Part shown: positions 36,913 to 41,192 of the stretch, piece after piece
Numbering within the stretch: the stretch's first letter is position 1
Layout: every line of letters starts with the position of its first letter
DNA from: Nonomuraea zeae
Lineage (GTDB): Bacteria; Actinomycetota; Actinomycetes; Streptosporangiales; Streptosporangiaceae
Reading direction: 5' to 3'
DNA length: 64,000 bases
NCBI RefSeq assembly: GCF_005889725.1
Contig: NZ_VCKX01000014.1
Location: 1 to 64,000, forward strand
The notes under the pieces: model-generated
What the model was told of the DNA's origin: nothing
Seen by the model: the letters and a program-made list of their open reading frames with translations, nothing else
The model's database searches: none
Program-made: the position numbers and the translations under genes

Positions 36913-38289
36913 ATGGAGCTCCGGATCCACCGGCGCGCTCTTGTCGGAATTGGCCTCGCCGCAGCGGTAGCCGCGTCGTCGTTGGCCGTGCTCCGCACCG
37001 ACTCCGGCATCGCTTCCTCACACCGTGAGGCCCCGGCCATCTCGGCCGACCCGCAACACGACAACACCGACGTGTACGCGTTCGTCAGCCCGGACAAGGC
37101 CGACACGGTGACCCTGCTGGCGAACTGGATCCCGTTCGAGGAGCCTCAGGGCGGCCCGAACTTCTACCCGTTCGCCACCAAGTCCCGCCACAACATCAAG
37201 ATCGACAACGATGGCGACGCCAAGCCGGACATCACCTACGAGTGGGTGTTCCGCAACGAGGACAAGCGCGGCAACGACACGTTCCTGTACAACAAGGCGC
37301 CCGTCACCTCGCTGAACGACCCCGACCTGCTCTTCCGCCAGCGCTACACGCTCAAGCGCATCACGCCGAGCGGCTCCACGACGCTGATCTCGGACGGCAT
37401 CGTCGCGCCGAGCAACGTCGGCCCCGCCTCGATGCCGAACTACGGCACGTTGCGCGCCCAGTCCATCAGGAACCTGCCGGACGGCGGCAAGACGTTCGCC
37501 GGGCAGGCGGACGAGGCGTTCTTCCTCGACCTGCGCGTGTTCGACTGCCTGTACGGCTGTGACCTGTCCGAGGTCGGCCAGGACACCACCAAGGGCTACA
37601 ACGTCAACACGATCGCGTTGCAGGTGCCCGCTTCGGACCTGGCCATCAAGGGCGACGCGAAGAACAACCCCGTGATCGGCGTCTGGTCCACCACGGACAA
37701 GTTCAACGGCGAGAAGTTCGTCCAGGTCTCGCGGCTGGGCAACCCCCTGGTCAACGAGGTCGTGGCTCCCGCCGGGCTCAAGGACGCGTTCAACGCCCTG
37801 CCTCCGGAGAAGGACGCCGATGTGGACGCTCTGGTCAAGCGGGTCACCGACCCCGAGCTGGCCAGGCTGCTGCAGTCCTCCTACGGCATCAAGGCGCCCG
37901 CCACCCCGCGCAACGACCTGGTCGAGATCTTCCTGACCGGCATCGCCAAGGCCAACGGCCCGATCAAGGCCGACCTGAACTCGCAGAGCCTCAACAAGGA
38001 CGCGGCCAAGCTGCGCCCCTCCGAGATGCTGCGGCTCAACATGTCGATCCCGCCCACGAAGGACCCGAACCGGCTGGGCGTGCTGGGCGGTGACCTCCAG
38101 GGGTTCCCGAACGGCCGCCGGCTCTCCGACGACGTCGTGGACATCGAGCTGCAGGCCGTGGCGGGCGCCGCCCAGTCCGGCAAGCTCGTGCCGGGGCTGA
38201 CGGACAAGGTGGACAGGAACGACCGGCCCTTCCTGCAGTCGTTCCCGTACATCCCGCTCCCCAGCAACGTCGCGGTGAACAGGCGATAG
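36913..38289 (+). CDS. Secreted DUF4331 family protein
   Basis: A 458-residue exported protein of unknown function. It has a signal sequence (basic RIHRRALVGIGLAAAVAASSLAVL) and then the family hallmark SSHREAPAIS and DNTDVYAFVSPD near residues 35-60. Later conserved parts are WIPFEEPQGGPNFYPF, the aromatic/acid-rich GQADEAFFLDLRVFD with two Cys (DCLYGCD), NTIALQVPASDL, GVWSTTDK, and RNDLVEIFLTGI. ATG 36913 follows AAAGGA. It is first in a group with a TPR protein and a NicO-type membrane protein. Its acidic, signal-bearing nature would suit extracytoplasmic ion or ligand handling; that is inference. Confidence 0.9.
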   Translation: MELRIHRRALVGIGLAAAVAASSLAVLRTDSGIASSHREAPAISADPQHDNTDVYAFVSPDKADTVTLLANWIPFEEPQGGPNFYPFATKSRHNIKIDNDGDAKPDITYEWVFRNEDKRGNDTFLYNKAPVTSLNDPDLLFRQRYTLKRITPSGSTTLISDGIVAPSNVGPASMPNYGTLRAQSIRNLPDGGKTFAGQADEAFFLDLRVFDCLYGCDLSEVGQDTTKGYNVNTIALQVPASDLAIKGDAKNNPVIGVWSTTDKFNGEKFVQVSRLGNPLVNEVVAPAGLKDAFNALPPEKDADVDALVKRVTDPELARLLQSSYGIKAPATPRNDLVEIFLTGIAKANGPIKADLNSQSLNKDAAKLRPSEMLRLNMSIPPTKDPNRLGVLGGDLQGFPNGRRLSDDVVDIELQAVAGAAQSGKLVPGLTDKVDRNDRPFLQSFPYIPLPSNVAVNRR

Positions 38290-38295
38290 CGACCT

Positions 38296-39639: not shown

Positions 39640-41192
39640 GATTGGTCAGGCTCGGCCTGCTGTCCGTCGCGACGGGCCTGGTGCTGTCGCTGTGCGTGAG
39701 CCTCCTGCTCGTCGCCGCCGCCCACGCCGCGACCACGGCGCACCCGCTGGGGAACTTCACCGTCAACCACTACAACGGCCTGCGGGTCTCGCCCTCCGAC
39801 ATCCGCAACCACGCCGTCGTGGACATGGCCGAGCTGCCCACCCTGCAGGCCAGGCCGGACGTGGACGGCACGTACGCGGCCCGGCGCTGCACCGCGCTGG
39901 CCGCGGCCCAGCGCCTGGAGGTGGCCGGCCGGCCGGTGCCGTGGCGGGTGACCCAGTCGTCCTTCGCCTACACCCCCGGCCAAGGGGGTCTCCAGACCAG
40001 CCGACTGGTGTGCCGGCTCGTGGCCGAAGTCCGTGCCGCGGGGGCCGTGGAGTTCACCGACGGGTTCGAGCAGGACCGGATCGGCTGGCGTGAGATCACC
40101 GCGGTGGGCGACGGGGTACGGCTGACCGATTCGTCGGTGCCCACGACGAGCGTGAGCAACGAGCTGCAGTCGTACCCCGAGGATCTGCTGACCGACCCGC
40201 TCGACCAGCGCACGGCCACGTTCACCGTGTCCGGGCCCGCACTCGGCGGCGCGCCCGCGGCCGGGGGCGGCACGGGCGCTCCCGCGAGCGGCCTGCCGTC
40301 CGGGATCGAGATCGGCGGGCCGATCGGCGACGCGCTGGCCGCGCTCGACCGGACGTTCACCGGCCTCATCGGCTCCGACTCGCTGACCCTGCCGCTCGGT
40401 CTGCTGGCGGTCGGGCTGGCCGTGGTGCTGGGGGCCGGGCACGCGCTGATCCCCGGGCACGGCAAGACCATCATGGCGGCGTACCTGGCCGGCCGGCGCG
40501 GCCGCCCGCGCGACGCGCTCGTGGTGGGGGCGACGGTGACGGCCACGCACACGGTCGGGGTGCTGGTGGTGGGGCTGCTGCTGAGCGTCTTCACGGCGCT
40601 GGCGGGAGAGTCGGTGCTGGCCTGGCTGGGGCTGGCCAGCGGCGTCCTGATCGCCGTCATCGGCCTCCGCCTCCTCCTGAACGCCCGCCACACCTCCCTG
40701 CACGGCTTCGGCCACGGCCACGGCCACGGCCATGGGCACGGTCACGGTCACGGCCATGGGCACGGTCACGGTCACGGCCATGGACACGGGCACGACGGCG
40801 ACGGCGACGGCGACGGCGACGGCGACAGCGACAGCGAGGGCGAGGGCGAGGGCAAGGGCGAGCGGAAGCGGAAGCGGACGGGGCTGATCGGCCTGGGTGT
40901 GGCGGGCGGGCTGGTGCCCAGTCCGTCGGCCCTGATCGTGCTGCTCGGCGCGATCGCGCTCGGCCGCACCTGGTTCGGAGTGGCGCTGGTGACCGCGTAC
41001 GGCGTCGGCATGGCGGCCACCCTCACGCTCACCGGCCTGCTCCTGGTCAAGCTCGTGGACCGGCTGGAGCAGCGCGCCTCGGCCGGCCGCCGCCTGGCCG
41101 CCAGGCTGTCGGGCCTGGCTCCGGTGGGCACGGCCGCCATGGTCGTCCTGCTGGGCGCCGGCCTGGCCCTCCGCTCGGTCGCCTCCTTCTGA
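39636..41192 (+). CDS. NicO-type (nickel/cobalt transport family) membrane protein with long His/Asp/Glu/Arg linker
   Basis: A 518-residue protein. Signal/membrane segment at residues 5-30, an extracytoplasmic domain (HPLGNFTVNHYNGLRVS...) up to about 220, then a membrane domain of the NicO/HupE kind with GAGHALIPGHGKTIMAAYLAG, ATVTATHTVGVLVVGLL and VAGGLVPSPSALIVLLGAIALGR. Between helices lies a loop of 14 Gly-His units, then Asp-Gly, Glu-Gly and Lys/Arg blocks (residues about 355-415), suggesting metal capture. The family moves Ni2+ or Co2+; direction and metal are not shown. Translationally coupled to the TPR gene. Confidence 0.85.
   Translation: MRLVRLGLLSVATGLVLSLCVSLLLVAAAHAATTAHPLGNFTVNHYNGLRVSPSDIRNHAVVDMAELPTLQARPDVDGTYAARRCTALAAAQRLEVAGRPVPWRVTQSSFAYTPGQGGLQTSRLVCRLVAEVRAAGAVEFTDGFEQDRIGWREITAVGDGVRLTDSSVPTTSVSNELQSYPEDLLTDPLDQRTATFTVSGPALGGAPAAGGGTGAPASGLPSGIEIGGPIGDALAALDRTFTGLIGSDSLTLPLGLLAVGLAVVLGAGHALIPGHGKTIMAAYLAGRRGRPRDALVVGATVTATHTVGVLVVGLLLSVFTALAGESVLAWLGLASGVLIAVIGLRLLLNARHTSLHGFGHGHGHGHGHGHGHGHGHGHGHGHGHGHDGDGDGDGDGDSDSEGEGEGKGERKRKRTGLIGLGVAGGLVPSPSALIVLLGAIALGRTWFGVALVTAYGVGMAATLTLTGLLLVKLVDRLEQRASAGRRLAARLSGLAPVGTAAMVVLLGAGLALRSVASF
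40706..40876 (+). repeat. Gly-His/Asp-Gly/Glu-Gly coding repeat
   Basis: Nested repeats: a 6-base GGNCAY unit repeated 14 times, with a 24-base higher-order unit (pattern ggc cat ggg cac ggt cac ggt cac) present at least twice, then GGCGAC units, GGCGAG units and Arg/Lys codons. Copy number probably varies among strains. Confidence 0.9.

Follow-up and report, generated by a model that had tools for sequence, protein, structure and literature searches.

The closest described counterparts of the system examined here are the anglerases, HupE/UreJ-2 permeases fused to an outward-facing domain whose first mature residue is histidine (His1). In the passages of the 2025 paper devoted to these domains (PMC12537917), His1 of Ang-1 is presented as a mono-histidine brace with a Kd of 73.6 nM for Cu2+ and 220 nM for Ni2+, Ang-2 is given a Kd of 62.3 nM for Cu2+, and PDB entry 9GCE is the copper-bound Ang-1 domain of a HupE/UreJ-2 protein. 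The discoverers propose there that the outward His1 domain serves capture and uptake, and a HupE is cited as a nickel transporter needed for hydrogenase. A second point of comparison is the amino-terminal copper- and nickel-binding (ATCUN) motif, defined in the relevant passage of PMC12929937 as a free Xaa-Zaa-His N-terminus. Here we analyse a three-gene operon of Nonomuraea zeae, encoding a DUF4331 protein, a tetratricopeptide repeat (TPR) protein and a NicO-like permease, within a stretch of 64,000 nucleotides (contig NZ_VCKX01000014.1, positions 1 to 64,000 of the forward strand), referred to as the window.

With Ang-1 and Ang-2, as portrayed in those passages, the permease of the window shares a predicted signal peptide, a predicted mature His1, a beta-sandwich with helices after the second strand and the fusion of this domain to a permease. 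Unlike them, it is NicO/RcnA-like and not a PF13795 (HupE/UreJ-2) protein, the sequence similarity of its outer domain to theirs is weak, and its unit includes two extra genes, DUF4331 and TPR, neither of which is mentioned in the abstract, section 8 and term-matched passages of PMC12537917. Because the permease belongs to another family, it is termed anglerase-like and not Ang-1 or Ang-2. Its transmembrane core and His-rich loop liken it to RcnA (NF007454) and NicO (PF03824), but it lies under both cut-offs and has the N-terminal outer domain added. DUF4331 resembles ATCUN proteins, such as the human Ctr1 ectodomain and serum albumin, in its predicted free Xaa-Xaa-His N-terminus, although it is unrelated to them and its ATCUN binding is a prediction. 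The general type, a metal-catching domain that feeds a permease, was described in 2025; as far as our searches reach, both the combination of DUF4331, TPR and NicO and the reading of the DUF4331 N-terminus are new. Among the open-licence PMC papers searched, none names DUF4331 or PF14224 and none contains both 'ATCUN' and 'domain of unknown function'.

From the computed order, conservation and coupling of the genes, their matches to families and folds and the position of His relative to the processing sites, we read the operon, tentatively and with slightly more doubt than trust, as a three-part envelope system that would capture a divalent metal such as Cu(II) or Ni(II) and feed it to a dedicated permease, probably inwards. 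We infer that DUF4331, once exported and cleaved, would hold the metal with its mature Ser-Ser-His N-terminus, and that the TPR protein, membrane-tethered and translationally coupled to the permease, would dock DUF4331 to it. The metal would be handed to His1 of the permease beta-sandwich domain and then imported via the NicO-like channel beneath the outer domain, with its His-rich loop. The wider claim is possible and is held with greater reserve: DUF4331 would be an ATCUN protein across the family, in secreted and leaderless forms, and together with the TPR protein and the His1-bearing NicO/HupE permease would make up a capture-relay-import system with two successive first-residue sites. If the N-terminal reading is true, DUF4331, so far a family without a function, would turn out to bind metal at a testable site of three residues and to have a permease and a scaffold as partners, and the concept of anglerases published in 2025 would widen to NicO permeases and multi-protein systems. 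The features concerned are, in window coordinates:

36913-38289, + strand: DUF4331 gene, 458 aa; signal peptide, predicted mature end Ser-Ser-His-Arg-Glu-Ala-Pro
37015-37023, + strand: codons Ser35-Ser36-His37 of DUF4331, predicted mature residues 1-3, ATCUN-type Xaa-Xaa-His
38440-39639 (ATG start; 38434 if TTG), + strand: TPR gene, 399 aa, membrane-tethered; TPR models above cut-off
39636-41192, + strand: gene of the NicO-like (RcnA-nearest) permease, 518 aa; N-terminal extracytoplasmic domain and His-rich loop
39741-39743, + strand: codon His36 of the permease, predicted mature His1, preceded by Thr-Thr-Ala
40701-40820, + strand: His-rich loop of the permease, residues 356-395, 15 His in 40 residues

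An earlier note on this DNA, made from the letters alone, had described three genes in one direction with the last two coupled by ATGA, and its coordinates and + strand hold: ATGA at 39636-39639 is common to the TPR stop (TGA) and the permease start (ATG). Its DUF4331 assignment is confirmed by PF14224 (E 1.8e-149; 499 bits, cut-off 27; model 1-421 of 421 covered), and the His-rich loop it had pointed out starts at residue 356; the loop is present in most alignment rows and short in L034 and L041 (L and G numbers are our labels for loci and genomes). Of its placement of the permease in the NicO/HupE family, the NicO-like, RcnA-nearest character stands, whereas the protein misses the cut-off of NicO PF03824 (14.2 bits, cut-off 27.7). 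In NCBIfam it scores best with NF007454, the RcnA subfamily of nickel/cobalt efflux proteins (97.8 bits, under the cut-off of 195), and a Pfam scan at E 0.1 gave no PF13795 match. The name 'NicO-like' is used because relatives do pass the PF03824 cut-off (Streptomyces anulatus 30.0 bits, Nostoc 44.3 bits). The TPR protein scores above the Pfam cut-offs of TPR_14, TPR_19, TPR_2 and TPR_17 and, by eye, has a hydrophobic segment at its N-terminus. Judged from their signal and anchor segments, all three proteins are predicted to face outwards.

Predicted N-terminal histidines of DUF4331 and the permease

The position of His in DUF4331 follows the predicted processing sites closely. Among 103 long proteins with their N-terminal part inside the fetched loci, SSHREA (ASHREA in one) is preceded by Ala in 101 and by the start Met in two. 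Of a further 39 long proteins, 32 combine Ala at -1 with a small residue at -3, three have the start Met and four Gly or Ser at -1, and among the long Pseudomonadota forms read Ala precedes SSHREA in 9/9. Odd residues in long forms are Pro at -3 in L064, Gly at -1 in L189 and L217, and Ser at -1 in L213 and L214; the Bacteroidota protein L141, with Ser at -1, Glu at -2 and Leu at -3, is ambiguous. Short DUF4331 proteins without a signal peptide consist at their beginning of the start codon, Ser, Ala or Pro, one residue and then His in 17 of 18 cases. When all leaderless proteins are taken together, five long forms included, the start codon lies exactly two residues before His in 22 of 23, the exception (L225) being a 142-residue open reading frame (ORF) with Tyr replacing His. 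In short forms with a signal peptide (Croceicoccus, P. aeruginosa, Nostoc and L222), His is third too.

As to the sampling, 16 short-form stretches were considered, of which L231, L232 and L236 have an unreadable N-terminus and stand outside the 23, and L222 (a signal-peptide form) and L237 (a long form) were counted apart; five of 35 plasmid records with short-type DUF4331 matches were read. Since a further upstream in-frame start exists in 15/23 leaderless proteins, some of these starts could be wrong; in L238 and L239 the existing annotation places the start identically. An ATCUN site for Cu(II)/Ni(II) calls for a mature Xaa-Zaa-His end in which Zaa is not Pro; such an end is predicted for the 103 and 39 long forms and for 22 of the 23 leaderless ones. 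That His stays third after signal peptidase or, presumably, methionine aminopeptidase is our main ground for regarding the end itself as probably functional. The AlphaFold model of DUF4331 has a mean pLDDT of 85.1, and no solved relative was found by sequence at E 1. Antibody domains were set aside as a fold match, their VIA Z of at most 5.8 being uninformative; a new fold is not implied.

The second predicted histidine site lies in the outer domain of the permease. The AlphaFold model of this protein has a mean pLDDT of 75.4, with the blocks of residues 41-200 mostly >90 and forming a beta-sandwich. For residues 40-206, the top solved match was 9GCE (Foldseek E 8.8e-4, probability 1.00, template modelling (TM) score 0.42 on the target, root-mean-square deviation (rmsd) 7.5), which was also the sole match under E 0.001. 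Further matches with probabilities of 0.95-0.98 include the zinc-binding PA4063 (rank 4) and ZrgA (rank 12), with unrelated proteins interspersed. VIA-align placed 138 residues on 9GCE (Z 8.3, rmsd 4.4) and gave a Z of 8.6 for zinc-binding ZrgA (8F1B). Sequence searches for solved relatives returned only weak, unrelated or His-rich matches for the window permease, and none for the HupE protein of Marinobacter. His36 is invariant in alignments of 63 and of 12 rows, and the residue immediately preceding it is Ala in the window, in 56/63 aligned relatives (of which 55 have a small residue at -3) and in 21/21 further relatives.

Co-occurrence of the three families

The earlier note had looked to co-occurrence across actinobacteria for its three-part system and named its absence as a refutation; co-occurrence proved strong in Actinomycetota and recurs on one cyanobacterial and several proteobacterial plasmids, so this refutation failed. 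In a survey of 149 genomes of the phylum, the Pfam search found DUF4331 in 25, with full-length genes in 20. The TPR (E <1e-120) and NicO (E <1e-90) profiles, built from some of these 149 genomes, found the TPR family in 19 genomes, 18 of them DUF4331 genomes (Fisher p ~5e-20), and NicO in 15, every one with TPR. NicO lies on a different contig in G022 and G084, and G017 has TPR-NicO without a DUF4331 match. DUF4331 is widespread: in a sample of 396 genomes from the phylum, 68 carry it.

At the level of loci, a partner was counted when found anywhere in the fetched stretch, on either strand. Both partners occur near DUF4331 in 11/20 loci of the first, unnamed sample, in 66/80 named loci and in 21/38 of a later unnamed sample. 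TPR is the only partner in 6, 10 and 7 of them, and 3, 4 and 10 have no partner; among these last, 0, 4 and 5, respectively, are cut within 3.5 kb downstream. The named loci are the best 80 of at least 587 confirmed DUF4331 matches and, being top-ranked, are biased to close relatives; named and unnamed samples overlap in part (L036/L125, L191/L131) and are not independent. Same-strand TPR-NicO pairs have a 4-base overlap in 89/95 cases. The cluster is kept despite changed order or strand (e.g. L066, L067, L069, L121, L096): three Actinomadura have TPR-NicO ahead of DUF4331, and others show divergent or split orders. L034 contains one possible TPR-NicO fusion ORF, which in this draft assembly may be a frame error. 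Named relatives whose DUF4331 is 83-87% identical to that of the window are Nonomuraea and [Actinomadura] parvosata. A small putative lipoprotein family of ~110 residues was also seen in 9 loci (L077, L068, L070 and six more), mostly adjoining NicO; the one member tested had no Pfam match.

Beyond this phylum, genes for DUF4331, for a protein that is TPR or TPR-like and for a HupE/UreJ permease lie in a row on plasmids of Marinobacter, a Comamonadaceae, Lichenicola (two) and Croceicoccus. Of the middle proteins, that of Marinobacter alone exceeds a Pfam TPR cut-off, the others matching TPR models below it, and the TPR profile of the window family finds those of Marinobacter, the Comamonadaceae and one of the two Lichenicola with E values between 3e-13 and 3e-9. 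The slot of the permease is taken in Pseudomonadota by a HupE/UreJ-2 protein with its own predicted His1 domain, and PF13795 was confirmed in four proteobacterial permeases (L138, L139, L143, L242). Two Pseudoalteromonas loci have a sigma factor, an anti-sigma factor, DUF4331, an Ig-like protein, a 'hypothetical' protein and HupE/UreJ; the 'hypothetical' protein passes TPR_14 in L154, and in L153 it is a 214-residue piece with nothing over cut-off. A third Pseudoalteromonas, L142, showed no HupE within the fetched stretch. The same triad is found on a Nostoc plasmid, where the NicO protein (the 44.3-bit relative above) has HPLGNFTINHY after its predicted signal peptide.

Reduced or altered sets were found as well. 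Adhaeribacter and Miltoncostaea have DUF4331-TPR only, and on plasmids of Sulfitobacter (L140 7926-17318) and Paracoccus (L145 7929-17353), DUF4331 adjoins type II secretion and prepilin-peptidase genes, with neither TPR nor permease annotated at these loci. Among 14 plasmid records with a HupE of the Marinobacter type (one place covering >=80%), 11 have a DUF4331 match within ~2 kb, and the three without are from Deinococcus proteolyticus and P. shioyasakiensis (two). On a P. aeruginosa plasmid (L241 3369-6312), the neighbours in a row are DUF4331, a c-type cytochrome, DUF4198 and HupE/UreJ, and in three of the four proteins His lies at or near the predicted N-terminus; the DUF4198 family includes a nickel-binding member, according to a passage of PMC12537917. 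PF13795 was found in 2/149 genomes of the phylum, one of them over cut-off, namely the genome of the window itself. There it belongs to a HupE/UreJ-2 protein (L148 1408-2544, G000:C102) with a signal peptide followed by Ala-Ala-His, adjoining a metallophosphoesterase-like ORF, as for Ang-2. Since the window genome holds both, NicO-type and PF13795-type permeases coexist.

Proposed metal capture and competing explanations

The metal role suggested in the earlier note is better founded by the 9GCE fold match, the predicted His1 and the predicted Xaa-Xaa-His, whereas nickel or cobalt in particular, the examples it gave, is not supported, as the solved relative binds Cu2+ tighter than Ni2+ in the affinities quoted above. 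For the scaffold role that the note gave to the TPR protein, the grounds are conservation, coupling and the one possible fusion ORF of L034, and the note's interpretation as a whole is partly supported. We rate nickel and copper about level, because the permease families and one DUF4198 neighbour favour nickel and the solved domain prefers copper. Urease, NiFe hydrogenase and nickel superoxide dismutase (NiSOD) were searched in the genomes of the phylum as a guide to the metal. The hydrogenase search returned strong and weak matches mixed, and NiSOD occurs in 16/20 DUF4331 genomes vs 30/129 others (p 1.5e-6).

Several observations weigh against capture and import by the three proteins. NiSOD was rejected as a nickel indicator, with families f13, f27, f45 and others carrying it with or without the operon; because its distribution follows family membership, the association was not used to identify nickel. 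G017, which has TPR and NicO, gave no urease or NiSOD match. The curated model nearest to the permease is the exporter RcnA. For the DUF4331 fold there was no convincing solved match (best Foldseek E 0.03, TM ~0.1). According to the documentation of VIA, a Z of about 8 may mean no more than a common arrangement, and the hhalign comparison between the NicO outer domain and a set of 11 domains of the Ang-1 type was weak (probability 17.6%, 46 columns around the EF-hand), so that the kinship of the outer domain to Ang-1 rests on fold. The residues at positions -1 and -3 were the sole basis for judging cleavage, and seven of the 63 aligned permeases have Met (3), Thr (2), Val or Gly before His. 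Five of these (L059, L061, L062, L063, L120) are among the closest relatives of the window, and their residue before His fits cleavage poorly, which weakens His1 in this lineage. DUF4331-TPR occurs without a nearby NicO in 23/138 loci, 8 of them on cut stretches, and long DUF4331 genes are partnerless despite sufficient sequence in L047, L048, L051, L188, L204, L207, L208 and L218.

The main rival, which we consider unlikely, is export, in which an RcnA-like pump would expel nickel or cobalt (or copper) and DUF4331 would buffer or sequester the metal outside. Its arguments are that RcnA is the top NCBIfam match at 97.8 bits, that the permease has a long His-rich loop, such loops being common in metal exporters, and that SigK/RskA-like sigma and anti-sigma genes adjoin the set in some lineages, consistent with stress-type control. 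However, the permease scores under the RcnA cut-off of 195 bits, and in Pseudomonadota its slot is held by HupE/UreJ-2. The passages of PMC12537917 already cited, in which an outward His1 domain is proposed for capture and uptake and a HupE is cited as a hydrogenase nickel transporter, likewise point inwards.

Surface display is likewise an improbable account: DUF4331 would be a regulated, sometimes sortase-anchored surface protein not chiefly concerned with metal, and SSHREAP a folding or export motif. The sortase genes following DUF4331 in 11 loci, the tails of the DUF4331 proteins there, a fasciclin gene beside one set, and the partnerless DUF4331 adjoining type II secretion genes in Sulfitobacter and Paracoccus would all fit such a role. 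It fails, however, to explain why His is exactly third in leaderless forms and why the link to a NicO/HupE permease recurs in three phyla. That an EF-hand-like loop is the working site of the outer domains, with the permease moving Ca2+ or Mn2+, is very improbable, for although the loop occurs in 22/54 HPLG-matching NicO relatives (63 examined) and, by eye, in several Ang-1-type relatives, the window protein has lost it by shortening and many relatives lack it, whereas His36 is invariant.

Possible control and anchoring, and genomic setting

Two further features precede and separate the genes of the operon:

36821-36847, + strand: candidate extracytoplasmic function (ECF) sigma promoter CATCC-N17-CGAAT, 65 bases 5' of the DUF4331 start
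38297-38415, + strand: three tandem hairpins between DUF4331 and TPR, with the arms of the first and third located

By rough ORF clustering, an ECF sigma family is present in 29/99 loci and an anti-sigma family in 14/99; in 8 of the 29, the sigma gene is divergent and no more than 0.4 kb from the match to DUF4331. The sigma factor of the Streptomyces locus L134 reaches 287.2 bits, above the NCBIfam SigK cut-off of 226; those of L034 and L142 have SigK as best match below cut-off, and RskA_C is over its cut-off in L034 and under it in L044. CATCC/CAATCC-N14-18-CGAAT occurs upstream of DUF4331 in 16/104 stretches vs 18/2080 random controls, the same CGAAT-type pattern on the other strand in 9/104, and 88/104 upstream stretches are without the pattern. 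The candidate promoter is found in the window and in 8/9 close relatives (not L065), aligned with CAATCC/CATCC-N16-CGAAT sites. This pattern resembles the mycobacterial SigK promoter. Elsewhere in the window genome, exact CAATCC-N16-CGAAT occurs once, before an unrelated secreted protein.

The sole RskA_C protein found in the window genome lies on another contig (L161 6815-7939, G000:C742), where we recognised no neighbouring sigma gene. The genome's best SigK-like factor, also elsewhere, scores 167.7 bits, below cut-off. SigK-type control of the window operon is for these reasons only suggested. The sigma gene neighbouring the set in L134 and RskA_C in L034 recall the SigK/RskA systems as outlined in passages of PMC7509140; unlike those systems, no such pair adjoins the window operon.

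A sortase gene follows DUF4331 by 129-402 bases in 11 loci, where the DUF4331 C-termini have a Gly-rich stretch, a hydrophobic segment (10/11) and Arg; a hydrophobic tail is also found in 41/93 others, and the strict tail motif in 6/11 sortase loci vs 1/93 others. By eye, the DUF4331 protein of the window has no sortase-type tail. A Streptomyces anulatus plasmid (L146 7878-16818) carries, after DUF4331, TPR and a nickel transporter, another DUF4331 together with genes for a sortase and a fasciclin.

Between the divergent ABC-transporter gene upstream and DUF4331 lie two palindromes, GTCAACCTAGATTGAC (36713-36728, GTCAAC-CTAG-ATTGAC) and GTCAACTTTGGTTGAC (36740-36755, GTCAAC-TTTG-GTTGAC), both kept in 4/10 aligned sequences (window, L058, L059, L061). 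They were considered as DUF4331 operators and are probably operators of the ABC-transporter gene instead, because they are kept where the upstream stretch also resembles the start of that gene. The gap between DUF4331 and TPR, on which the earlier note is silent, measures 150 bases, and 38287-38440 folds with a z-score of -6.82 into three strong hairpins, which may set the ratio of DUF4331 to TPR and permease. Downstream of the operon is a convergent gene with a sub-threshold AbiEii match. The eight proteins scanned within ~5 kb on either side included no obvious metal protein apart from the permease. When the entire window was scanned with Rfam at gathering scores, no metal riboswitch turned up upstream of the operon; the scan found a tRNA and a tandem glycine riboswitch, both distant, the latter with two aptamers at 51504-51699 on the + strand.

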